From Roseococcus microcysteis (GTDB lineage Bacteria > Pseudomonadota > Alphaproteobacteria > Acetobacterales > Acetobacteraceae): a stretch of 64,000 nt of DNA. The stretch lies in assembly GCF_014764365.1 (NCBI RefSeq), contig NZ_CP061718.1, positions 3,984,501-4,048,500 of the forward strand, given 5' to 3'. The translations under genes and the position numbers were made by a program. Positions within the stretch are counted from its first letter, which is position 1; every line of letters begins with the position of its first letter. The notes under the pieces are model-generated. The model ran no database searches. It saw only the letters and a list, made by a program, of their open reading frames with translations, and had not been told where the DNA came from. Below are positions 5,987 through 56,996 of this stretch, piece after piece.

Positions 5987-6493
5987 ATGCGCGTGATCGG
6001 CTTCGCCGGCTGGAGCGGTGCCGGCAAGACCACGCTGGTCACGCGCCTCATTCCCTGGCTGGCCGGGCAGGGGCTCACGGTTTCCACCATCAAGCACGCG
6101 CATCACCGCTTTGACCTCGACCGGCCGGGCAAGGATTCGCACGCGCATCGCGAGGCAGGTGCGGCGCAGGTGCTGCTGGCCTCCTCGCAACGCTGGGCGC
6201 TGCTGACCGAGCATCGCGGCGCGCCGGAGCCGGAACTGCCCGAATTGCTGGCGCAGCTCGCCCCCGTGGATCTGGTGCTGGTGGAGGGCTTCAAATCCGG
6301 CCCCCATCCGCGCATCGAGGTGCACCGCGCCGCCTTGGGCCAGCCCTATCTCCACCCGGACCAGCCCGGCATCGTGGCGCTGGCGAGCGACGCGCCGCCG
6401 CCCCCCGGCGCCCCGCCGCATCTGGACCTGGACGACATCCCGGCCATCGGCGCCGCGGCACTTCGCCTCGCGGTGCCGCGCGCGGCGCTGTAG
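5987..6493 (+). CDS. mobB: Molybdopterin-guanine dinucleotide biosynthesis adaptor protein MobB
   Basis: GTP-binding accessory protein of the last molybdenum cofactor step (attachment of GMP by MobA). 168 residues from ATG 5987. Seen: a P-loop GWSGAGKTTLV at residues 6-16, STIKHAHHRFDLD and DLVLVEGFKSGPHPRIEVHR, all hallmarks of MobB. Seven bases after tarD and nine before moeA, so within the same run of genes. No mobA is in the window. Confidence 0.93.
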   Translation: MRVIGFAGWSGAGKTTLVTRLIPWLAGQGLTVSTIKHAHHRFDLDRPGKDSHAHREAGAAQVLLASSQRWALLTEHRGAPEPELPELLAQLAPVDLVLVEGFKSGPHPRIEVHRAALGQPYLHPDQPGIVALASDAPPPPGAPPHLDLDDIPAIGAAALRLAVPRAAL

Positions 6494-6502
6494 CCTCGCG
6501 CC

Positions 6503-7711
6503 ATGGCGCTCCCTGACGACTGCTTCGCGCTGGACGATTCCCCGCTGACGGTCGAGGCCGCGCAGGCGCTGATCGCCGCGCGCGTCACCCCGCTTGGCGG
6601 CGAGGAATGGGTGCCGCTCATCGCCGCGCTGGGGCGCGTGCTGGCGCGGCCGCTCCACGCCGCGACACCGCTGCCGCCCTTCACCAATGCGGCGCTAGAT
6701 GGCTACGCCTTCCAGCACCCCGCGACCGGCCCGCTGCCCATCGCGGCCCGCATCACGGCCGGGCAGGCGGCGGGCGCGCTGGAGCCCGGCACCGCCGCGC
6801 GCATCTTCACCGGCGCCGCCCTGCCCGAGGGCGCGGACACGGTGCTGATGCAGGAAGCGGCGCGGCTGGTGGGGGGCGCGCTGCTTGTGCCCCCCGGCCT
6901 CGCCCGCGGCGCCAACACGCGCCGGGCGGGCGAGGAACTGGCCCTCGGCGCCGAGGGCCTGCCCGCGGGCCGCCGTCTGCGCGCACCGGAAATCGGGCTG
7001 GCCGCCGCCCTGGGCGCCGCGACCCTGCCGGTGCGGCCCCTGCTGCGCGTGGGCGTCTTCTCCACGGGCGATGAGCTGGTGCCGCCCGGCCAACCCCTCG
7101 GCCCCGCCCAGGCGCATGACAGCAACCGCTTCACCCTGATGGCGCTGCTGGCCGCGCTGCCCGTCGCCGTCACCGACCACGGCATCCTGCGCGACGACGC
7201 CGCCGAAACCCGCCGTGCCCTGCACGCCGCCGCTGAAAGCCAGGACCTGCTGCTGACGTCCGGTGGCGTCTCGGCGGGCGAGGAGGACCACGTTCGGGCC
7301 AGCCTGGGCCGCCTCGACTTCTGGCGCCTGGCGGTGAAACCGGGGCGGCCGGCCGCGCTGGGCGTGGTGGCGGGCACCCCGTTGCTGGGCCTGCCCGGCA
7401 ACCCGGTGGCGGCGGTGGTGGCCTTCCTGCACCTGGCGCGGCCGCTGGTGCTGCGGCTGGCGGGCGCGCAACCCGAGACGCTGCCCCGCCTCACCGCCAT
7501 CGCGGGCTTCCATCACACGAAACGCCCTGGCCGGCGGGAGTATCTGCGCGTCGCGCTGCGCGACGGCACCGCCCAAAAATTCCCGCGCGAGGGTTCGGCC
7601 TGGCTGACCTCGCTGACGCAATCCGACGCGCTGGCCGAGCTGCCCGAGGCGTTGGAGGTGGTCGGCCCTGGCGATGCGCTCCGCCTTCTCCCCTTCCAGG
7701 GAATTTTCTGA
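6503..7711 (+). CDS. moeA: Molybdopterin molybdenumtransferase MoeA
   Basis: Inserts molybdate into adenylylated molybdopterin. 402 residues, full length. Seen: PPFTNAALDGYAF near the N-terminus (the PxxxxSxMDGYA motif of the family), GVFSTGDELVPPG with the following DSN triplet, the SGGVSAGEEDHV turn, VKPGRP and LGLPGNPVAAVV. ATG at 6503, nine bases after mobB. MobB and MoeA together form the molybdenum cofactor maturation part of this operon. A third cofactor gene is not seen. Confidence 0.95.
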   Translation: MALPDDCFALDDSPLTVEAAQALIAARVTPLGGEEWVPLIAALGRVLARPLHAATPLPPFTNAALDGYAFQHPATGPLPIAARITAGQAAGALEPGTAARIFTGAALPEGADTVLMQEAARLVGGALLVPPGLARGANTRRAGEELALGAEGLPAGRRLRAPEIGLAAALGAATLPVRPLLRVGVFSTGDELVPPGQPLGPAQAHDSNRFTLMALLAALPVAVTDHGILRDDAAETRRALHAAAESQDLLLTSGGVSAGEEDHVRASLGRLDFWRLAVKPGRPAALGVVAGTPLLGLPGNPVAAVVAFLHLARPLVLRLAGAQPETLPRLTAIAGFHHTKRPGRREYLRVALRDGTAQKFPREGSAWLTSLTQSDALAELPEALEVVGPGDALRLLPFQGIF

Positions 7712-7743
7712 CAGGCTCGCCTCAAGACCCTGGAGGAAACCGC

Positions 7744-8496
7744 ATGACCGACCACGTCCAGACCACGCGCGAGGGCGCGGTGCTGACCATCCGCCTCAAC
7801 CGCCCCGACAAGAAGAACGCCCTCACGCGCGAGATGTATGGCGCCATGGGCGCGGCCCTGCGCGCGGCCGCGGGCGACGACGCCGTGCGCGTGATCCTGC
7901 TGGCGGGTGGGGCCGACTTCACCGCGGGCAATGACATCGCGGACTTCGCGGCGGTCGGAGAGCGCAAGCCGGGCGACCCCGGTGCCGCCTTCGAATTCCT
8001 CGAAGCCCTGGTGGGCATGACCAAGCCCGTGGTGGCCGCGGTGCGCGGCAATGCGGTGGGCATCGGCACCACGCTGCTGCTGCATTGCGACGTGGTGGTG
8101 GCCAGCACCACCGCCCGGCTGATGATGCCCTTCACGAAGCTGGCCCTGGTGCCGGAGGCCGGTTCCTCCTTCCTGCTGCCGCTGCGCGTGGGTCCGGCGC
8201 GGGCGAATTGGTGGCTGCTCTCGGGTGCCGCCTTCAGCGGGGCCGAGGCGGCGGAAGCCGGCCTCGCCACCCGCGCCGTCGAGGATGGCGCGGTGGACGC
8301 CACCGCCGCCGAGATGGCCGCAACCCTGGCCGCCCTCCCGCCCGGCTCCGTTCAGGAATCCAAGCGCCTCATCAAGGCCCCGCACGCCGAGGCCCTGCGC
8401 GCGGTCATGGCGGCCGAACGCGTCTCCTTCGGCGAGCGGCTGCGCAGCGAGGAGGCGCAGGCCGCCTTCGCGGGCTTCCTCAAGCGCAAGGGTTGA
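7744..8496 (+). CDS. Enoyl-CoA hydratase family protein
   Basis: 250-residue crotonase-fold protein starting at ATG 7744 after CTGGAGGAAACCGC, a good ribosome site. Seen: IRLNRPDKKNALTREMYG, the pocket segment TAGNDIADF, the oxyanion segment VRGNAVGIGTTLLLHCDVV and LALVPEAGSS, which keeps a Glu at the catalytic position. C-terminal helices are present. It follows moeA by 32 bp. Its last 17 bases overlap the tail of the convergent quinone oxidoreductase gene. Acyl substrate unknown. Confidence 0.9.
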   Translation: MTDHVQTTREGAVLTIRLNRPDKKNALTREMYGAMGAALRAAAGDDAVRVILLAGGADFTAGNDIADFAAVGERKPGDPGAAFEFLEALVGMTKPVVAAVRGNAVGIGTTLLLHCDVVVASTTARLMMPFTKLALVPEAGSSFLLPLRVGPARANWWLLSGAAFSGAEAAEAGLATRAVEDGAVDATAAEMAATLAALPPGSVQESKRLIKAPHAEALRAVMAAERVSFGERLRSEEAQAAFAGFLKRKG

Positions 8497-9463
8497 TGAC
8501 GACGCGGCCCAGCGCGCGGCGGTTGGCCACTTCCGCCATCGCCGCGCGGAACTCGGCCAAGGGATAGCGCGCATGGACCTCGGGGCGGAGCTTCCCCTCC
8601 GCCCACCAAGCCACCAGCTGGTCCCACAGGGCGCGCACGCGCGGCGCGTAACCCTCGCGCCCATCGCCCGGCGACCAGCCGATGTAGCTGCCCCAGTTGA
8701 GGCCCGCGACCGCGATGTTCTTCAGCAGCAGGATATTGGCCGGCACGGTCGGGATGCCGCCGCCCGCATAGCCGATGGTGACCAGCGTGCCGCCGTCGCC
8801 CAGGCAGCGCAGCGATTCGTCGAAGCTGGCCCCGCCGATCGTGTCCAGCACGCAGGAAACGCCCGCGCCGCCGGTCGCGGCGCGCACGGCGTCGCGGAAG
8901 GGAAGCGTCGAATCCAGCACCACCTCGGCGCCCCGCGCGCGCAGCGCCGCGTGCTTCGCCACGCCGGCGCGCGCGATGACATGGGCGCCCAAGGCGCGCG
9001 CCACCTCCACCCCCGCCAGCCCCACGCCGCCACCGGCGCCCTGCACCAGCACCCAGTCGCCCGGTCCTACCCGCCCGCGCCACATCAGCGAGGCGGCGGC
9101 GGTGGGGTAGCTGATGGGCATGGCCACCGCGGCATCGAGCGGCAAATGGTCCGGCAAGGGCGTGACGTGGATGGCGTCCACCACCGCCTCCTCGGCCATG
9201 GCACCCCAGTCCAACGCGGCGAAGACGCGCGTGCCCGCCGGTAGCGGGCCTTCCAGCACCACGCCCGCGGCCTCGGTGCCCGGCGTGAAGGGCAGGGGCG
9301 GGCGGCGCTGATACTTGCCCTCCACCACAAGCTGCGTGGCGAAGGACACGCCGGACGCCTCCACGCGGATCCGCACCGCGCCGGGGCGCATGGGTGGCGG
9401 CGGGACCTCCTTCACCTCCAGCTGGTCGAAGGGCCGCCAGGATTCGCAGACCAATGCGCGCAT
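8480..9463 (-). CDS. Zinc-independent quinone oxidoreductase (MDR superfamily)
   Basis: NADPH-dependent medium-chain reductase of the quinone oxidoreductase/crotonyl-CoA-reductase-like group, 327 residues. Seen: an N-terminal GroES-like half with EVPPPPMRPGAVRIRVEASGVSFAT, then the Rossmann motif VLVQGAGGGVGLAGVEVARALG near residue 143 and GNWGSY-like loops before a short C-terminal cap ending VVINPCA. No zinc-binding Cys cluster is seen. It starts four bases after the stop of the Bug gene at 9468, so both are one transcript. Confidence 0.9.
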   Translation of the reverse strand: MRALVCESWRPFDQLEVKEVPPPPMRPGAVRIRVEASGVSFATQLVVEGKYQRRPPLPFTPGTEAAGVVLEGPLPAGTRVFAALDWGAMAEEAVVDAIHVTPLPDHLPLDAAVAMPISYPTAAASLMWRGRVGPGDWVLVQGAGGGVGLAGVEVARALGAHVIARAGVAKHAALRARGAEVVLDSTLPFRDAVRAATGGAGVSCVLDTIGGASFDESLRCLGDGGTLVTIGYAGGGIPTVPANILLLKNIAVAGLNWGSYIGWSPGDGREGYAPRVRALWDQLVAWWAEGKLRPEVHARYPLAEFRAAMAEVANRRALGRVVINPCA

Positions 9464-9467
9464 GGCG

Positions 9468-10432
9468 TCAGCCCGCCGTGATGTTGGCGTCGCGGACCAG
9501 GCGGCCCCAGCGCTCGTATTCGGACCGCACGAAGCGGGCGAAGTCGGCGGGCGGGCTGGCCACGGGCTGCGCCCCCAGCGCGGTGAAGCGCGCCTTTGCC
9601 TCCTCCGTCGCGTTCACCGCGGCCACGGCCTGCTGCATGCGCGTCGCGATCGCCTCCGGCAGGTTCCTGGGCCCCCACATGCCGTACCAGGTAGTGATCT
9701 CGTAGCCCGGCACGCCCGCCTCCGCGATGGTGGGCAGATTCGGGAAGGCCTCGATGCGTTCGGCGGTGCTGACGGCGAGGGCCTTCAGCCGCCCCTCGCG
9801 CACATGCTGGGCCGAGGAGGCCAGGCTGTCGAACATCACCTGCACATGCCCGCCCACCATGTCCGTCAGCGCGGGGCCGGAGCCGCGATAGGGGACATGG
9901 GCGATGTTCGTGCCCGTCATCAGCTTGAACATCTCGCCCGCCAGATGCGGCGCGCCGCCGATGGAGGAGGAGGCATAGGAAAGCCGCCCCGGCTGCGCGC
10001 GGGCCAGCGCGATGAGTTCCGCCACGCTGTTCACCGGAAGCTGCGGGTTCACCACCAGGATCAGCGGCACCTTCACCAGCTCCGTCACCGGGGTGAAATC
10101 CGCCACGGCGTCGAAGGGCATGTTGGGCTGGAGGTGCGGGATGATGACATGCGCGGACGCATTCACCAGGAACATCCCGCCATCGGGGGCCGCGCGCGCC
10201 ACCTCGCCTGAGCCGATCACGCCCGAGGCGCCCGCCCGGTTCTCCACCACCGCGGGCTGGCCCAGCTGCGCCTGCAAGCCCGCCGCCACCACACGCCCCG
10301 CGATGTCGGTGGGCCCCCCGGCGGATAGGGCACGATGATGCGCACCGGCCGCGTGGGCCAGGATTGCGCGCGTGCCAATGCGGGCGTGGCGAGCAGCGGC
10401 GCGGCCAGGATGGCGCGTCGTGTGGCGTGCAT
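9468..10432 (-). pseudogene. Bug/TctC-family solute receptor, frameshifted (probably a one-base sequence error)
   Basis: Periplasmic receptor of the tripartite tricarboxylate transporter type (PF03401). ATG at 10432 follows GGGAGAAACCC and begins MHATRRAILAAPLLATPALA, a clear signal peptide, then SWPTRPVRIIVPYPPGG. At the run C6/G3 (plus strand 10311-10319) the frame breaks; the rest (TDIAGRVVAAGLQAQLG to VRDANITAG) continues in the next frame down to TGA 9468. One extra base in the run restores a normal 321-residue Bug protein, with HVPYRGSGPALTDMVGG and other conserved blocks intact. No TctA/TctB permease is nearby. It sits back to back with a CoA-transferase gene and upstream of a quinone oxidoreductase. 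Confidence 0.85.
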
Positions 10433-10486
10433 GGGTTTCTCCCTTCCTCGGTTGGAGCGATGATACGCCCAAACGGAGGAACGGCC

Positions 10487-11605
10487 ATGCCAGGACCCTA
10501 TGACGGAATTTTCGTGCTCGACGCCGCGCAAGGCATCGCCGGCCCCTATTGCGGCATGCTGCTGGCGCAGGCGGGGGCCACCGTGGTGAAGCTCGAACCG
10601 CCCAAGGGCGACTGGTCGCGCGGGCTGACGGCGCGCGAGGGCGACCATTCCGTGATGCACACCGCCTTCAACCGCGGCAAGAAAGGGCTGGTGCTGGACC
10701 TCGCACAGCCCGAGGACCGCGCCAAGGCCGCGCGCCTCGCCGCCCGGGCCGATGTGCTGATCGAGGCCTTCCGCCCCGGGGTCGCCGCGCGCATCGGCCT
10801 CGGCCCCGAGCAGGCCAAGGAGGATGCGGTCTGCGTTTCCGTCTCCGGCTTCGGCCAGTCCGGCCCCTACAGCGAGCGTCCCTGCACCGATGGCGTGGCG
10901 CAGGCCTTTTCGGGCCTGGTGTCGCTCAATGCCGGGGCGGATGGCGTGCCGCACAAGGTGGGGACGCTGGTGGTGGACGTGTTTTCCGGCCTTTCCGCCT
11001 TCGCCGCCTGCCAGGCCGCGCTGGCCGAACAGGCGCGCGACCGCGCCACGGGGGCCACGCCGCGCCGGCGGCACCTCGACATCTCGCTGATGCAGGCGGC
11101 GGCCTCGCTGCTGGTGCTGCCCATCGCCGAGGGCGGCTTGCTGGGCCGCATGCCGGCCGAGCTGAACGTGCCCGCCGGCACCTGGCAGGGCAGCGATGGC
11201 GCCTGGGTGATGGTGGCCATGGTGCGCGAATCCGAATTCGTCACCCTCTGCCAGGAACTCGGCCTGCCCGAACTGCCCAATGACCCGCGCTTCAACAGCT
11301 TCGCCCAGCGCGCCGCCAACAAGGCCGAGATCGTCCCCATCCTGCGCGAGGCCTTCCGCCGCAAGACCGCCGCCGAATGGGTCACGCAGCTCCAGGGCGT
11401 GCGGATGCTGTGCGACCGGGTGAACACACCCCTCGAATGGCTGCGGGACCCGCATGTGCAAGCCGTGGGGGCCGCCCCCTTGTTCAACCAGCCAGGCCTC
11501 GGCACCCTGCCTTTCCCGGCCATTCCGGGCTTCGGCGCCTGGGAGGTGCCGGCCCCCGGTCTCGGCGCCGACACCGATGCCATCCTCCGGGAATGGGGAG
11601 CCTGA
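10487..11605 (+). CDS. CaiB/BaiF family CoA-transferase
   Basis: Family III CoA-transferase of 372 residues, somewhat shorter than the one at 3631. ATG 10487 follows AACGGAGGAACGGCC, an excellent ribosome site. Seen: VLDAAQGIAGPYCGMLLAQAGATVVK at the N-terminus, NRGKKGLVLDL, SGFGQSGPYSERP, and a probable catalytic Asp in LVVDVFSGLSAF. It is divergent from the Bug receptor (54 bp between starts), and three bases separate its stop from the TPR gene. A role in activating the acid captured by the receptor is inference from position. Confidence 0.9.
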   Translation: MPGPYDGIFVLDAAQGIAGPYCGMLLAQAGATVVKLEPPKGDWSRGLTAREGDHSVMHTAFNRGKKGLVLDLAQPEDRAKAARLAARADVLIEAFRPGVAARIGLGPEQAKEDAVCVSVSGFGQSGPYSERPCTDGVAQAFSGLVSLNAGADGVPHKVGTLVVDVFSGLSAFAACQAALAEQARDRATGATPRRRHLDISLMQAAASLLVLPIAEGGLLGRMPAELNVPAGTWQGSDGAWVMVAMVRESEFVTLCQELGLPELPNDPRFNSFAQRAANKAEIVPILREAFRRKTAAEWVTQLQGVRMLCDRVNTPLEWLRDPHVQAVGAAPLFNQPGLGTLPFPAIPGFGAWEVPAPGLGADTDAILREWGA

Positions 11606-11608
11606 ACC

Positions 11609-12937
11609 ATGCCGCGCGACGCCCAGGGCAACGCCGCCACCTTCGCCTCCGACGAGGCGGCTGCCGGCTATGACCGCACCATCGCCTCCTTCCTGAACTA
11701 CCGCTTCGACACGCCCTTGCAGCTCAAGGCCGCCCTCGCCCTGGATGGCGAGGCGCCGCTGCTGCACGCCATGAAGGCGGGCTTCTCCATGATGGCCTAC
11801 AATCAGGCCTTCATCCCCGCCGCGAAGGCCTCCATCGCGACCGCGCGCGGCCTACGGCCCAATGCGCGCGAGAGCCTGCACCTGGACGCGCTCGAGGCCT
11901 GGGCCGATGGCGGGCAGGAGCGCGCGCTGGCCATCTGGGAGCGCATCGTGGCCGAGCACCCGCGCGACATCCTGGCCTTCCGCTTCCACCACTTTTCCGC
12001 CTTCTGGATGGGCCGCACCCCGGCCATGTATCAGCTCGTGGAAGCCGCCATCCCGCACTGGGCGGACGACATGCCGGGCTATGGCTCCATGCTGGCCTGC
12101 CGCGCCTTCGCCCATGAGGAATGCGGCAGCTACGCCATCGCCGAACGCGCCGGGCGCGAGGCCATCCGCCGCGACCCCAGCGACCTCTGGGCCGCGCATG
12201 CGGTCGCGCATGTGCTGGAAATGCAGGGCCGCCGCGCCGAGGGCATCGGCTGGATCACGCAGCTCACGCCGCATTTCGGCGCGGGCAACAACCTCCGCCA
12301 CCACATCTTCTGGCACCAGGCGATGTTCCACCTGGAGCGCGGCGAGCATGACGAGGTGCTGCGCCTCTACGACCAGGGCTTTCGCGACCTGCAAAGCCCC
12401 GTGACGCAGGTGCAGCCCGACCTCTACATTGATTGCCAGAACGCGGCCTCCATGCTGTTCCGCCTGGAGCGCCAGGGCGTGGATGTGGGCGACCGCTGGG
12501 TGGAGCTGGCCGACAAGGCCGAGGGCCGCATCGGCGACTGCCTCTCCGCCTTCACCCTGCCGCACTGGATGATGGCGCTGACCGCGACCGGCCGGCTCGA
12601 CGCCGCATCCCGCATGCTCGACGCCATGCGCGACTACGCGCTGGCCAATACCGGCGACAATCCGCGCATCGTGCGCGACTACGCCATCCCCGCCTGCGCC
12701 GCCCTGCTGCACCGCGCCCGCGGCGAATACGCGGACGCCGTGGCCGTGATGCGCCCGGCCCTGGGCGGGATGCACGAACTCGGCGGGAGCTACGCGCAGC
12801 AGGACGTGCTGGAACAGCTCTTCCTCGACGTGGCGCTGAAGGCCAACGCACAGACCGACGCCGACATGCTGCTGGAACGCGTCCGCGGCCGCTGGCCCAC
12901 ACCGCCGGAACGGCGGGCGGGGTACGCGCGGGGGTAG
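11609..12937 (+). CDS. Tetratricopeptide repeat protein, TTC38-like
   Basis: 442-residue soluble helical-repeat protein with no signal peptide. Paired helices of TPR character run through most of it (LRPNARESLHLDALEAWADGG, ALAIWERIVAEHPRDILAFRF, AIAERAGREAIRRDPSDLWAAHA). The Trp/His-rich centre (HHIFWHQAMFHLERGEHDEVL) matches the bacterial family related to eukaryotic TTC38. No catalytic motif is recognised; such repeats usually bind proteins. The gene starts three bases after the CoA-transferase stop, so the two are co-expressed. Function unknown. Confidence 0.8.
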   Translation: MPRDAQGNAATFASDEAAAGYDRTIASFLNYRFDTPLQLKAALALDGEAPLLHAMKAGFSMMAYNQAFIPAAKASIATARGLRPNARESLHLDALEAWADGGQERALAIWERIVAEHPRDILAFRFHHFSAFWMGRTPAMYQLVEAAIPHWADDMPGYGSMLACRAFAHEECGSYAIAERAGREAIRRDPSDLWAAHAVAHVLEMQGRRAEGIGWITQLTPHFGAGNNLRHHIFWHQAMFHLERGEHDEVLRLYDQGFRDLQSPVTQVQPDLYIDCQNAASMLFRLERQGVDVGDRWVELADKAEGRIGDCLSAFTLPHWMMALTATGRLDAASRMLDAMRDYALANTGDNPRIVRDYAIPACAALLHRARGEYADAVAVMRPALGGMHELGGSYAQQDVLEQLFLDVALKANAQTDADMLLERVRGRWPTPPERRAGYARG

Positions 12938-50564: not shown

Positions 50565-51038
50565 ATGCCCGCCTCCGAGACGAACGTCATCCAGATCGCG
50601 CCCACCGACGTGCTGTTGGGCTTCGCCGGCGGCAGCAAGCGCGCCGTGCTGCAATCCCTCGCCGCCGAGGCCGCCCGCCGCCTGAACCTGCCCGAGCGCG
50701 AGGTGCTGGACGCCGTGCAGGCGCGCGAGGCGCTGGGCTCCACCGCGCTCGGTCGCGGCGTGGCCCTGCCCCATGCGCGGATGGAGGGCGAAATCCCCCC
50801 CACCATGCTTTTCGCCCGCCTGGCCCGCCCCGTGGACTACGAGGCGCGGGACGAGGAGCCGGTGGACCTCGTCATCCTCGTCCTCTGGCCCGCGGCCGAG
50901 CCGGAGGGCTTCCTGCCCTCGCTGGCCGAGACCTGCCGCGCGCTGCGCGAACCCCAGACGCTGCGCCGCCTGCGCGCCGCCGCCACGCCGGAGGAGGTCG
51001 CTTCCCTGCTCACCCCCAGCCCCGGCCAGGATGGCTGA
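50565..51038 (+). CDS. PTS EIIA domain protein (PtsN-like)
   Basis: 157 residues from ATG 50565. Mannitol/fructose-type EIIA fold as in PtsN; the probable phosphorylated His lies in GVALPHARMEG. No EIIB/EIIC fusion, so the protein is regulatory rather than part of a sugar porter. Typical PtsN starts near a rpoN-hpf cluster; here it stands instead directly in front of the mrp antiporter genes, six bases from mrpA. A role in ion homeostasis is suggested by this position. Confidence 0.85.
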   Translation: MPASETNVIQIAPTDVLLGFAGGSKRAVLQSLAAEAARRLNLPEREVLDAVQAREALGSTALGRGVALPHARMEGEIPPTMLFARLARPVDYEARDEEPVDLVILVLWPAAEPEGFLPSLAETCRALREPQTLRRLRAAATPEEVASLLTPSPGQDG

Positions 51039-51044
51039 GGGAGG

Positions 51045-53962
51045 GTGTCGGACAGCCTCCTCCTCCTCAGCCTCGTCGCGCTGCCCTTCCTGGGCGCACT
51101 GGCCGCTTCGCTTCTCGCGACCCATGCGCGCAATGCCGCCGCCTACCTGGCGGGCGGCGTGGCGCTGGCGGGGCTGGCGCTGGTCTGGACGGCCTATCCC
51201 ACCATCTCCCAGGGCGGCGTGTTGCGGGCGGAATTCGCCTGGGTGCCGCAGCTCGGGCTGAACTTCGTGCTCAGGATGGACGGGCTGGCCTGGCTGTTTG
51301 CCGGGATGGTCACGGGCATCGGCGCGCTGGTCGTGGTCTATGCGCGCTACTACATGTCCACCGAAGACCCGGTGCCGCGCTTCTTCGCCTTCCTGCTGGC
51401 CTTCATGGGCGCGATGTGCGGGCTGGTGCTGTCGGGCAATCTCATCCAGCTCGCCTTCTTCTGGGAGATGACCTCCCTCTTCTCCTTCCTGCTCATCGGC
51501 TACTGGCACCACACCCAGGCGGCGCGGGATGGGGCGCGCATCGCGCTGACGGTCACCGCCACGGGCGGCCTCTGCCTCTTCGCGGGAATGCTGCTGATCG
51601 GGCACATCGTCGGCAGCCATGACCTCGACGTGGTGCTGGCCTCGGGCGATGCCATCCGGAACCACCCGCTCTATCTGCCCGCCCTGGTGCTGGTGCTGTT
51701 GGGGGCGCTGACCAAGAGCGCGCAATTCCCCTTCCACTTCTGGCTGCCGCACGCCATGGCGGCCCCCACCCCCGTCTCGGCCTATCTGCATTCGGCCACG
51801 CTGGTGAAGGTGGGGCTGTTCCTGATGGTGCGGCTCTGGCCCGTCATGGCCGGCACCGACGCCTGGTTCTGGATCGTGGGCACGGCGGGGCTGATCACGC
51901 TGCTGGTCGGCGCCTATATCGCCATCTTCCAGCATGACCTGAAGGGGCTGCTGGCCTATTCCACCATCAGCCATCTGGGGCTGATCACGCTGCTGCTCGG
52001 GCTGAACAGCCATCTCGGGCTGGTGGCGGCCATCTTCCACATCCTGAACCACGCCACCTTCAAGGCCTCGCTCTTCATGGCGGCGGGCATCATTGATCAT
52101 GAATCCGGCACGCGTGACATCCGGCGCCTGTCGGGGCTGAACCGCACCATGCCCTTCACGGGGCGCCTCGCCTTGGTGGCGGCCGCGGCCATGGCCGGCG
52201 TGCCGCTGCTGAACGGCTTCATCTCGAAGGAGATGTTCTTCGAGGAGGCGCTCTCCGCCGGCGGGCTGCTCGTGCTGCCGCTGGCCGCCATGCTGGCCTC
52301 GGCCTTCAGCGTCACCTACTCGCTGCGCTTCATCCACGGCACCTTCTTCGGCCCCGATCCGGAGGGCCTGCCGCGCACGCCGCACGAACCCCCCGCCTGG
52401 ATGCGCTTCCCCGTCGAGATCCTGGTGCTGGGCTGCATCTTCGTGGGCGTGCTGCCGGCGGCGACGGTGGGGCCCTTCCTCGACCTCGCCGCGCGCTCGG
52501 TGCTGGGCGACGCCACGCCCCATTACAGCCTCGCCGTCTGGCACGGCGTGAACCTGCCGCTGGTGATGAGCATGATCGCCCTTGGCGGCGGCGTGCTGCT
52601 CTACATGGCCTTGCAGCGCCACCTGCGCAGCGGCATCGAGGGCCCGCCCCTGATCCGTCGCCTGGAGGGGCGGCGTATCTTCGAGCGCGCGCTGGTCTTC
52701 CTCTCCTGGCGACTCGCGCGGCGGCTGGAGGGGGTGCTCGGCACGCGGCGCTTGCAGCAGCAGCTGCGCATGGTGCTGTTGCTGGCGCTCGCCGCGGGGG
52801 GCTTCGCGGCCTGGCATCGCGGCGTGGGGCCGGGCAACCTGGTGCCGCAGGGGGTGGACCCCATCATCGCCCTCGTCTGGCTGGGGGGGCCGCCTGCGCG
52901 CTGGGCGCGGCCTGGCAGGCCAAATTCCACCGCTTCGCCGCCGTCATGCTGCTGGGGGGCGCGGGGCTGGTGGTCTGCATCACTTTCGTGTGGTTCTCGG
53001 CGCCGGACCTCGCGCTCACTCAGTTGCTCGTGGAGGTGGTGACGACCGTGCTGCTGGTGCTGGGCCTGCGCTGGCTGCCCAAGCGCATGGACCAGCCGGG
53101 GGCCACGGGCGTGGAGGTGGTCACCATCAGCCGCCGCCTGCGCGACCTCGCCATCGCCATCACGGCGGGCCTCGGCATGGCGGCGCTGGCCTTCGCGGTG
53201 ATGACGCGCACGCCCCCCGAACTGCTGGCCCAGCATTTCCTCGCCCGCGCCTACACGGAGGGCGGCGGCACCAATGTGGTGAACGTGATCCTGGTGGATT
53301 TCCGCGCCTTCGACACGCTGGGCGAGATCTTCGTGCTCGGCGCCGTGGCACTCACGGTCTTCGCCCTGCTGCGCCGCTTCCGCCCCGCGCCTGACAGCCT
53401 GGACGTGCCCGAGCAGCAGCGCGACCAATCCGCCTGGGACGAAGCCCGCCCCGACCGGCGCGAGGGCGACACGGTGGCCGACTGGCTGCTGGTGCCCTCG
53501 GTGCTGACGCGGCTGCTCTTCCCCGTCATCTGCATCCTGGCCGTGCACCTGCTGCTGCGCGGGCATGACCAGCCGGGCGGCGGCTTCGCGGCGGGGCTGG
53601 CCGCTTCCATCGCCATCATCCTGCAATACATGATCGGCGGCGCGGCCTGGACCGAGGAGCGGTTGCGCGTGCTGCCGCTGCGCTGGATGGGGGCGGGGCT
53701 GCTGCTGGCCGGCGGCGTGGGGCTGGCCTCCATCTTCTTCGGCATGCCCTTCCTGACCACCTATTTCGCCTATGCCGAGCTGCCCTGGATCGGCCGGGTG
53801 CCGACGGCCAGCGCGCTGATCTTCGACATCGGTGTCTTCGCCCTGGTGGTGGGGGCCACGGTGCTGATGCTCATCGCGCTGGCTCACCAGTCGGTCCGCG
53901 GCCACCGCGCCGAACGCCGGGCCGAGACGGCGCCCCGCGCCCTGGTGCCGGGAGAGGATTGA
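51045..53962 (+). pseudogene. mrpA: Mrp Na+/H+ antiporter subunit A fused to B (mrpAB/phaAB), one-base frameshift
   Basis: GTG 51045 after GAGGGAGG opens a frame that matches MrpA (NuoL-like; FFWEMTSLFSFLLIGYWHH, LPHAMAAPTPVSAYLHSATLVKVG, KGLLAYSTISHLGL) until about 52880. There a run of seven G (52883-52889) breaks the frame; the protein goes on one frame over (ACALGAAWQAKFHRFAAVMLL, then APDLALTQLLVEVVTTVLLVLG) and ends in an MrpB domain (LIFDIGVFALVVGATVLMLIAL). One more G gives a 972-residue MrpA/B fusion. All other subunits are intact, so a sequence error is the likeliest reason. It is the largest Mrp subunit and carries part of the ion path. Confidence 0.88.
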
Positions 53963-54306
53963 TGGAGCTGGTCGTCGCCATCGGCATCGGGGTGCTGACC
54001 GGCTCGGGCGTGTGGCTGCTGCTGCGGCCGCGCACCTTCCAGGTCATCATGGGGCTCTCGCTGCTCTCCTATGCGGTGAACCTCTTCATCTTCTCCACGG
54101 GCGGGCTGCGCACCGGCGCGGCCCCGGTGCTGGAACCGGGCGGCGTGGGCGACCTCACCACCCATGCCGACCCGCTGCCCCAGGCGCTGGTGCTGACGGC
54201 CATCGTCATCAGCTTCGCCACCACGGCGCTGTTCCTGGTGGTGCTGCTGGCCGCGCGCGGCCTGACGGGCACCGACCATGTGGACGGGCGGGAGCAGGAC
54301 CGATGA
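53962..54306 (+). CDS. mrpC: Mrp antiporter subunit C (NuoK-like)
   Basis: 114 residues from ATG 53962, whose A is the last base of the mrpA stop. Three helices like NuoK: VVAIGIGVLTGSGVWLLLRPRTFQVIMGLSLLSYAVNLFIF, and a last helix ending FATTALFLVVLLAARG. Part of the Mrp complex that exchanges Na+ (or K+) for protons. Its stop overlaps the mrpD start in ATGA. Confidence 0.94.
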   Translation: MELVVAIGIGVLTGSGVWLLLRPRTFQVIMGLSLLSYAVNLFIFSTGGLRTGAAPVLEPGGVGDLTTHADPLPQALVLTAIVISFATTALFLVVLLAARGLTGTDHVDGREQDR

Positions 54307-55880
54307 CGCATCTCGTCATCGCCCCCATCATCATCCCGCTGCTGGCCGGCGCGCTGATGATGCTGCCGGGCGAGCGGTGGCGCACCCTGCGCACGGTGCT
54401 GGGCCTGGCCGCCACCGCCGCGCTGGTGGTGGTGGCGGGGCTGCTGCTGCTGCGCGCCGATGCCGCGGGCGCGGCGGAGGTGCAGCTCTATCGCCTGGGC
54501 AACTGGCCTTCCAGCTTCGGCATCGTGCTGGTGCTGGACCGGCTTTCCGCGCTGATGCTGGTGCTGGCTTCGGTGCTGGGCCTCGCCGCCCATGTCTTCG
54601 CGCTGGCCCGCTGGGACCGGGCGGGGGCGCATTTCCACCCGCTCTTCCAGTTCCAGCTCATGGGGCTGAACGGCGCCTTCCTGACTGGCGACCTGTTCAA
54701 CCTCTTCGTCTTCTTCGAGGTGATGCTGGCCGCTTCCTACGGGCTCGCGCTGCACGGCTCGGGCACGGCGCGGGTGCGGGCGGGGCTGCACTACATCGCA
54801 ATCAACCTCGCGGCCTCGCTGGTCTTCCTGGTGGGCGTCAGCGTCATCTATGGCGTGGCGGGCACGCTGAACATGGCGGACCTCGCGGCCCGCATGCACG
54901 ACATCGCGGCCGAGGACCGCGCTTTGCTGGAGACGGGCTGCGCCATCCTGGGCGTCGCCTTCCTCATCAAGGCCGCCATGTGGCCGGTGGGCTTCTGGCT
55001 GCCCGGCACCTATGGCGCGGCCAGCGCGCCGGCGGCGGCCATCCTCTCCCTGCTGAGCAAGGTGGGCATCTATGCCGTGCTGCGGCTGTGGCTGCTGCTC
55101 TTCGGCGACGGCGCGGGGGCGTCGGCGGGCTTCGGTGGCATGTGGCTGATGCTGGGGGGGCTCGCCACCATCGCCTTCGGCTCGCTCGCCGTGCTGGCCA
55201 CGCAGAACATGGCGCGGCTGGCCGGCGCCTGCGTCATCGTCTCCTCCGGCACGCTGCTGGCGGCCCTGGGCGCGGGGCAGGTGGCGGTGACGGGCGGCGC
55301 GCTGTTCTACATGACGAGTTCCGTGCTCGCCATCGGGGCCCTCTTCCTGCTGATCGAACTGATCGAGCGCGGGCGCGAGGTGGGCGCCGACGTGCTGGCC
55401 GTGACGCGCGAGGCCTTCGGCGAGGGCGCGGAGGAGGAATACCTGGACGATGACGAGGAGATCGGCGTCGCCATCCCCGCCATCATGGCCCTGCTGGGGC
55501 TGGGTTTCATGGCCTGCGCGCTGCTGCTGGCGGGGCTGCCGCCGCTGTCGGGCTTCCTCGCCAAATTCGCCATCCTCGCACCCCTGATCGGCACCGGGGC
55601 GGACGGCCTGCCCGCCACCACCTGGGCCGTGCTGGCCGCGCTGATCCTCTCGGGCCTCGCCTGCCTCATCGCCATGACGCGGGTGGGGATGGATGCCTTC
55701 TGGGCCGCGCCGGGCGCGCCGCCGCGTGTCGCCATGACCGAGATCCTGCCCGTGGCGGGGCTGCTGGCGCTGTGCCTCGGCCTTACCCTCATGGCGGGGC
55801 CGGTGATGCGCTACATGCACGACACGGCGGCGGGGCTGCATGCGCCCGCGGGCTATGTCGGCGGCGTGATGCGGCCATGA
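54303..55880 (+). CDS. mrpD: Mrp antiporter subunit D (NuoN/L-like)
   Basis: 525 residues from ATG 54303, about 14 helices. Seen: LFNLFVFFEVMLAASYGLALHG with a conserved Glu, FLIKAAMWPVGFWLPGTYGAASAPAAAILSLLSKVGIYAVLR with the functional Lys, and GLPPLSGFLAKFAIL. These are the standard antiporter-like subunit motifs. An acidic insert (EGAEEEYLDDDEEIG) near residue 380 is unusual. ATGA overlaps on both sides tie it to mrpC and mrpE. Confidence 0.95.
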   Translation: MTHLVIAPIIIPLLAGALMMLPGERWRTLRTVLGLAATAALVVVAGLLLLRADAAGAAEVQLYRLGNWPSSFGIVLVLDRLSALMLVLASVLGLAAHVFALARWDRAGAHFHPLFQFQLMGLNGAFLTGDLFNLFVFFEVMLAASYGLALHGSGTARVRAGLHYIAINLAASLVFLVGVSVIYGVAGTLNMADLAARMHDIAAEDRALLETGCAILGVAFLIKAAMWPVGFWLPGTYGAASAPAAAILSLLSKVGIYAVLRLWLLLFGDGAGASAGFGGMWLMLGGLATIAFGSLAVLATQNMARLAGACVIVSSGTLLAALGAGQVAVTGGALFYMTSSVLAIGALFLLIELIERGREVGADVLAVTREAFGEGAEEEYLDDDEEIGVAIPAIMALLGLGFMACALLLAGLPPLSGFLAKFAILAPLIGTGADGLPATTWAVLAALILSGLACLIAMTRVGMDAFWAAPGAPPRVAMTEILPVAGLLALCLGLTLMAGPVMRYMHDTAAGLHAPAGYVGGVMRP

Positions 55881-56365
55881 GGCGCCTGCTGCCCTTCCCC
55901 TGGGTCTCGGCGGCGCTGCTGCTGCTCTGGCTGCTGCTGGCCGGCAGCCTGGGCCCGGGCTCGCTGCTGCTGGGGGCGGGGCTGGCGCTGATGGGCGGCT
56001 GGCTGCTTTCCGTGCTGGACCCTGCCCCCACGCGGCTGCGCCGGCCGGTGGCGGCGCTGCGCCTCACCTGGGTCGTGCTGGTGGAGGTGTTCCGTTCCAA
56101 CAACGCGGTCGCGCGCCTCATCCTGGCGCCCGGCACGCGCGGGCGAAGCTCCGGCTTCGTGCGCATTCCGCTCGACATGCGAAGCCCGGCGGGGTTGGCG
56201 GCACTGGCCTGCATCCTGACCGCCACGCCGGGCACCGTCTGGGCCGAGTATGATTCCGCGCGCGGCATCATGCTGCTGCACGTCCTCGACCTGATCGACG
56301 AGGCGGAATGGGTGCGGATCATCAAGGACCGCTACGAGGCGCGACTGATGGAGATCTTCGAATGA
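55877..56365 (+). CDS. mrpE: Mrp antiporter subunit E
   Basis: 162 residues from ATG 55877 (overlaps mrpD stop). Two N-terminal helices (PFPWVSAALLLLWLLLAGS, LLLGAGLALMGGWLLS) and a soluble domain with ACILTATPGTVWAEYD, the MrpE signature. Small subunit needed for complex assembly. Its stop overlaps the next ATG. Confidence 0.94.
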   Translation: MRRLLPFPWVSAALLLLWLLLAGSLGPGSLLLGAGLALMGGWLLSVLDPAPTRLRRPVAALRLTWVVLVEVFRSNNAVARLILAPGTRGRSSGFVRIPLDMRSPAGLAALACILTATPGTVWAEYDSARGIMLLHVLDLIDEAEWVRIIKDRYEARLMEIFE

Positions 56366-56643
56366 CGGCGATGATCCTCTCCTGGTCGGTCTTTCTCGCG
56401 CAGCTCATGCTGGCGCTCGGCATGGGCTGCGCCATCTGGCGCGTGGCGCGGGGGCCCCGCGCGCAGGACCGCGTTCTGGCGCTGGACACCTTCTACGTGC
56501 TGGCCGCCATGCTGCTGCTGGTCTTCGGCATCCGCACCGGCAGCGTGGTGTATTTCGAGGCCGCGCTGGTCATCGCCCTGCTGGGCTTCGTGGCCACGGC
56601 CGCCCTGTCCAAATTCCTCATGCGCGGCGAGGTGATCGAATGA
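56362..56643 (+). CDS. mrpF: Mrp antiporter subunit F
   Basis: 93 residues, three helices, from ATG 56362. Seen: RVARGPRAQDRVLALDTFYVL, with the conserved Asp pair of MrpF, and EAALVIALLGFVATAALSKFL. Part of the same overlapping gene chain. Confidence 0.94.
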   Translation: MTAMILSWSVFLAQLMLALGMGCAIWRVARGPRAQDRVLALDTFYVLAAMLLLVFGIRTGSVVYFEAALVIALLGFVATAALSKFLMRGEVIE

Positions 56644-56996
56644 CCCATGCCGAGAGCCTGCCCGGCTGGGCCGCCATCCTGGTCTCGCTGCTGCTGCTGC
56701 TGGGGGCGGGGCTGGGCCTGGTGGGCGCCATCGGCCTGCTCAGGCTGCGCAACTTCTATGAGCGTGTGCACGCGCCGACGCTCGGCACCACGCTCGGCAT
56801 CGGCAGTATTCTTCTGGCCTCCATGCTGTTCTTCACCGTGCTCCAGGCCCGGCCCGTGCTGCACGAGGTGCTGATCGGCGTGTTCATGGTGCTGACCACG
56901 CCGGTGACGCTGATGCTGCTGGCCCGCGCCGCCCTCTACCGCGACCGGCGTGAGGGCAGCGCGGAGGTGCCGCGCAGCACGACGGGGGAGGGCTAG
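56640..56996 (+). CDS. mrpG: Mrp antiporter subunit G
   Basis: 118 residues from ATG 56640. Seen: GAIGLLRLRNFYERVHAPTLGTTLG, the diagnostic MrpG motif, and a C-terminal helix VLIGVFMVLTTPVTLMLLARAALYR. Last subunit; its TAG at 56994-56996 overlaps the first hairpin of the repeat cluster, which may end transcription of the operon. Confidence 0.95.
   Translation: MTHAESLPGWAAILVSLLLLLGAGLGLVGAIGLLRLRNFYERVHAPTLGTTLGIGSILLASMLFFTVLQARPVLHEVLIGVFMVLTTPVTLMLLARAALYRDRREGSAEVPRSTTGEG

Follow-up and report, generated by a model that had tools for sequence, protein, structure and literature searches.

The window analysed here, a 64,000-nucleotide stretch of the Roseococcus microcysteis genome, carries a gene for a stand-alone PtsN-like EIIA protein directly ahead of an mrp antiporter operon (Table 1). 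As the sequence-only reading of this DNA had stated, only six bases separate the two, the mrpA start being a GTG at 51045, 6 nt past the EIIA TGA, and this 6-nt junction is identical in two further Roseococcus species. The six-gene operon mrpA'CDEFG, with its fused mrpA and mrpB, has the subunit order of a Group 2 Mrp (CPA3) antiporter, a group in which this fusion has been described (PMC5703873). Neither an Rfam element nor a sigma-70-like promoter was found in the region. Two more MnhB-type genes are present in the same genome (C1:2828040 and C1:3824035), neither of them close to the EIIA gene.

Table 1. Features of the EIIA-mrp locus (positions in the window)
Feature	Position	Strand	Basis or remark
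EIIA, PtsN-like, mrp-linked subfamily, 157 aa	50565..51038	+	PF00359, E 4.3e-22; PtsN fold
Phospho-acceptor His70 codon (aligns with E. coli PtsN His73)	50772..50774	+	Alignment to 1a6j; His in 105/105 EIIAs
Subfamily signature Trp108 ... Gly115-Phe116	50886..50912	+	Phe116 at the E. coli PtsN His120 position
mrpA' (mrpA-mrpB fusion; 972 aa in relatives)	51045..53962	+	Frameshifted: ORFs 51045-53042 and 52946-53962
mrpC	53962..54306	+	NF006573 above cut-off
mrpD	54303..55880	+	NF009309 above cut-off
mrpE	55877..56365	+	NF006520 above cut-off
mrpF (K+/H+ antiporter subunit F model)	56362..56643	+	NF004812 above cut-off
mrpG	56640..56996	+	TIGR01300 above cut-off

One correction concerns mrpA, which is not continuous up to 53962 in a single frame. 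Comparison with R. thiosulfatophilus and R. suduntuyensis over 52870-52895 places the loss of a single T at about position 52882, which breaks the frame; the site reads TGGGGGGGCC in the window and TGGTGGGGGCC in the two relatives, whose 972-aa MrpA proteins are intact. A programmed frameshift was considered and rejected, since the relatives are in a single frame throughout and lack the G7 run. The frameshift is either a sequencing error or a recent mutation, and if it is real the antiporter of this isolate may be dead; the remaining mrp genes of the operon are intact.

The EIIA protein matches PF00359 (PTS_EIIA_2) at 79 bits against a curated cut-off of 27, and it misses the equivalog cut-off of the PtsN model TIGR01419 (99.1 bits vs 138.7). 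Its best PDB matches, both by sequence and by fold, are 1a6j, 3urr, 2a0j and 4gqx, and its structure model has a pLDDT of 90.6. We also note that the fold search with this model returned the cytoplasmic domains of the human SLC4 anion exchangers AE2 and band 3, which are EIIA-like domains joined to an ion exchanger.

The gene pair is found well beyond this strain, in Acetobacteraceae and Azospirillaceae, so the objection that it might be strain-specific fails. Among 150 Acetobacteraceae genomes (54 with an EIIA and 47 with an MnhB domain), coordinates and reading of the loci place EIIA immediately upstream of a fused mrpA on the matching strand in 18, from about 14 genera, and because order and strand are kept across this range the pairing is far beyond chance. 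EIIA is present at every Acetobacteraceae operon of the window's mrp subtype among those read; three fused mrp operons without EIIA are of a different subtype, whose MrpD is 41-44% identical, as is one more that a contig end interrupts. A search of named genomes found the pair at 9/9 Acetobacteraceae loci, with named Roseococcus, Roseicella, Neoroseomonas, Falsiroseomonas and Siccirubricoccus among its carriers, and the closest named relatives by EIIA identity are R. thiosulfatophilus (97%) and R. suduntuyensis (94%). The pair occurs both on chromosomes and on plasmids. It is plasmid-borne in Rhodovastum atsumiense, Roseomonas marmotae and Pseudoroseomonas cervicalis; Azospirillum sp. B510, A. 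brasilense Sp7 and A. argentinense Az39 have it on large replicons, and one of the class-level genomes outside the Acetobacteraceae (G320) has it as well. EIIA and mrpA are separated by -1 to 221 nt. Over 23 loci the distances among the EIIAs correlate with those among the MrpAs (r 0.89), a value that shared descent alone could produce.

Related Mrp operons of other families (L050, L051, L053 and L058) have no EIIA adjacent to them, and thus the antiporter does not need EIIA. A universal stress protein gene precedes the EIIA-mrp pair in Azospirillum sp. B510 (L174 8056-9477), and a similar ORF lies ahead of mrpA in a rhizobial-type genome (L181 17523-18653).

In our best-sampled EIIA tree, which comprises 105 sequences and whose bootstrap values are not fully settled, the mrp-linked EIIAs form a single clade (support 98/90), and together with two rhizobial groups they make up a clan (100/99) that stands apart from the rpoN-linked and kdp-linked EIIAs. 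A first tree had joined mrp-linked and kdp-linked EIIAs as sisters (98/90); that grouping disappeared once rhizobial sequences were added and was dropped. With fewer rhizobial sequences the rhizobial EIIAs are unresolved among the mrp-linked ones, and the fuller tree separates the two. The phospho-acceptor histidine (His70 in the window) is invariant in 105/105 EIIAs compared, and Arg54 is likewise conserved in all. Trp108 occurs in 36/36 members of the clan vs 0/69 of the rpoN/kdp-linked proteins. Position 116, which corresponds to the second conserved histidine, E. coli His120, is phenylalanine or leucine in 36/36 of the clan (28/28 of the mrp-linked EIIAs alone; Phe in the window) and histidine in 67/69 of the rpoN/kdp-linked EIIAs. 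His120 has been put forward as a possible second phosphorylation site in E. coli PtsN (PMC2215328), and the opposite has also been stated, namely that the first histidine is the only one (PMC9239096); its loss from the mrp-linked EIIAs could alter phosphorylation.

The rhizobial members of the clan adjoin rnk (two annotated plasmids) or cydAB, and not mrp directly. Two genomes of one family, L180 and L181 (about 6300-12100), have the order mrpACDEFG ... EIIA - cydA, with an EIIA of the same clan; the rhizobial clan EIIA before cydA lies ~1.7 kb downstream of mrpG. The annotated neighbours of the rhizobial plasmid EIIAs (L183-L187) are rnk (L184, L186) and a truncated hemoglobin gene (L185), and plastocyanin-family genes lie close by in L184 and L185. 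Sinorhizobium fredii has a third PtsN (PtsN3), which does not bind KdpD and seems opposed to low-K+ adaptation (PMC9239096); it might belong to this clan.

With long multidomain frames set aside, nearly every Acetobacteraceae EIIA gene adjoins a K+ system. There are 63 EIIA matches in the family, and when the 14 in multidomain frames of >840 aa are left out, 46 of the remaining 49 adjoin mrp (18) or kdp (28), the kdp-linked gene normally following kdpE directly. The other three comprise a gene at rpoN-hpf, a member of a GAT-type PTS operon and one gene without a context reading. EIIA genes of the other alphaproteobacterial families sampled are mostly at rpoN, and a kdp-linked ptsN2 has been reported from about 10% of alphaproteobacterial genomes (PMC13104625). 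The kdp-linked KdpD at L061 bears a Usp domain too.

The 4.2-Mb genome, a single contig, encodes no PF00359 protein besides the window EIIA. A second ptsN beside rpoN, raised by the sequence-only reading, was looked for, and there is none in the rpoN-hpf cluster (C1:4204478-4207957), where an lptB-like gene, rpoN and hpf are followed by an rnd-like gene on the opposite strand. With the sole EIIA of the genome sitting at mrp and outside that cluster, the protein might be the lineage's general PtsN, acting on many targets from an unusual place, in which case co-transcription with mrp would tie its level to ion stress without any contact with Mrp. We consider this unlikely: the protein is no relocated canonical ptsN, falling as it does outside the rpoN/kdp-linked clan, and one genome (G143) keeps an mrp-linked EIIA beside a separate kdp-linked one. 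Membership of a protein subfamily of its own and an rpoN locus without ptsN instead lend support to the description of this EIIA as dedicated.

A single cluster of the genome holds an HPr-kinase (HprK) domain match, rapZ, manX, HPr and EI (a ptsI without a GAF domain), and the genome has no match to EIIB (PF02302) or EIIC (PF02378). There are thus two candidate phosphorelay end points, ManX and the mrp-linked EIIA. Public databases label the mrp-linked protein 'PTS sugar transporter subunit IIA', a name that would fit a sugar-PTS remnant landed at mrp by chance; given that EIIB and EIIC were not found in the genome and that the gene order is kept across about 14 genera in two families, such an origin is extremely improbable and we reject it.

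The target of the EIIA could also be gene expression and not antiporter activity, for example via KdpDE or another kinase. KdpD is a target of PtsN in several proteobacteria (PMC13104625, PMC9239096) and kdpDE is encoded in the window genome, but the EIIA gene here is at mrp and not at kdp, and within the neighbouring genes read no conserved regulator gene adjoins the pair, so that we regard regulation of this kind as quite improbable.

We therefore favour the reading in which the EIIA is probably a dedicated PTSNtr-type output, placed in a Group 2 (Pha1-like) antiporter operon and controlling that antiporter. Points against it are the related Mrp operons of other families that have no adjacent EIIA, the rhizobial clan members that do not adjoin mrp, the missing second histidine and the frameshifted mrpA of this isolate. 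From the phospho-acceptor histidine and the presence of the PTS enzymes we infer, on what we consider sound grounds, that this control would be phosphorylation-dependent. The phosphoryl group would pass from PEP through EI and HPr to His70 of the mrp-linked EIIA, and the phosphorylated and unphosphorylated forms would differ in whether they bind an Mrp subunit on its cytoplasmic side. If E. coli PtsN and YcgO are taken as the model, it is most likely the unphosphorylated form that would bind directly and restrain K+(Na+)/H+ exchange, and cation efflux would thereby track the carbon, nitrogen and energy state of the cell. Mrp subunits were also compared for residues peculiar to the EIIA-linked operons, which yielded a few sites against a comparison set of only 12 unlinked sequences. 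Three of these, N366, F371 and R374 (L022 MrpA numbering), fall in one stretch of MrpA, which we take from NuoL topology to be a cytoplasmic loop, and they give a weak lead.

The Mrp family is related to respiratory complex I. On its broadest formulation, a new EIIANtr subfamily that lacks the second histidine and carries an invariant Trp would be a regulatory part of this complex I-related antiporter, and in Acetobacteraceae and Azospirillaceae it would couple K+/H+ exchange to phosphorylation from PEP; we advance this tentatively, at slightly less than even confidence. Within the scope of our literature search, no earlier proposal places the Mrp family under a phosphorelay, and this one would be the first. 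PTSNtr is known to control potassium in a few model species; there a single PtsN has many targets and the models disagree. A separate EIIA subfamily tied to one antiporter makes the role of PTSNtr in ion control testable in a simple setting, and A. brasilense Sp7 is a laboratory strain in which the pair is present.

The sequence-only reading took the pair to be undescribed. A full-text literature search, whose coverage mostly excludes subscription journals, found no paper joining ptsN with mrpA or EIIANtr with an Mrp antiporter, and to that extent the view stands; it is qualified by two precedents, PtsN-YcgO (PMC11808508) and the kdp-linked ptsN2 (PMC13104625). What appears to be new is thus Mrp as the partner and the distinct EIIA subfamily, PTSNtr control of cation transport being known already.

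The PtsN (EIIANtr) encoded in the rpoN operon of E. coli and alphaproteobacteria shares its fold, phospho-acceptor histidine, active-site Arg and upstream HPr and EI with the mrp-linked EIIA, which differs in its locus, in its separate clan, in the Phe or Leu at E. coli position 120 and in a signature of Trp, Gly and Cys. The kdp-linked ptsN2 (PMC13104625; PMC9239096) is similarly an EIIANtr gene within a K+ transport operon, but it follows kdpE, retains the second histidine in 26/28 cases and belongs to another clade. On the antiporter side, Pha1 of Sinorhizobium meliloti, a Group 2 Mrp that acts as a K+(Na+)/H+ antiporter, has the same mrpA'CDEFG order with fused AB (PMC5703873), and by analogy with it the window-type Mrp is expected to exchange K+(Na+) for H+; that review mentions neither the PTS nor a phosphotransferase. 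The closest functional parallel to what we propose, phosphorylation-dependent action of an EIIANtr on a monovalent cation/proton antiporter, is found in E. coli, where YcgO, a K+/H+ antiporter, is inhibited when unphosphorylated PtsN binds to it (PMC11808508). YcgO is a single-chain CPA1 protein whose RCK and CorC domains are thought to be the route of PtsN action. To our knowledge, ptsN and ycgO are not neighbouring genes in E. coli. Mrp, unlike YcgO, is a CPA3 complex of several subunits, and neither RCK nor CorC is matched in it by Pfam; any contact that EIIA makes with it must therefore differ from that between PtsN and YcgO.
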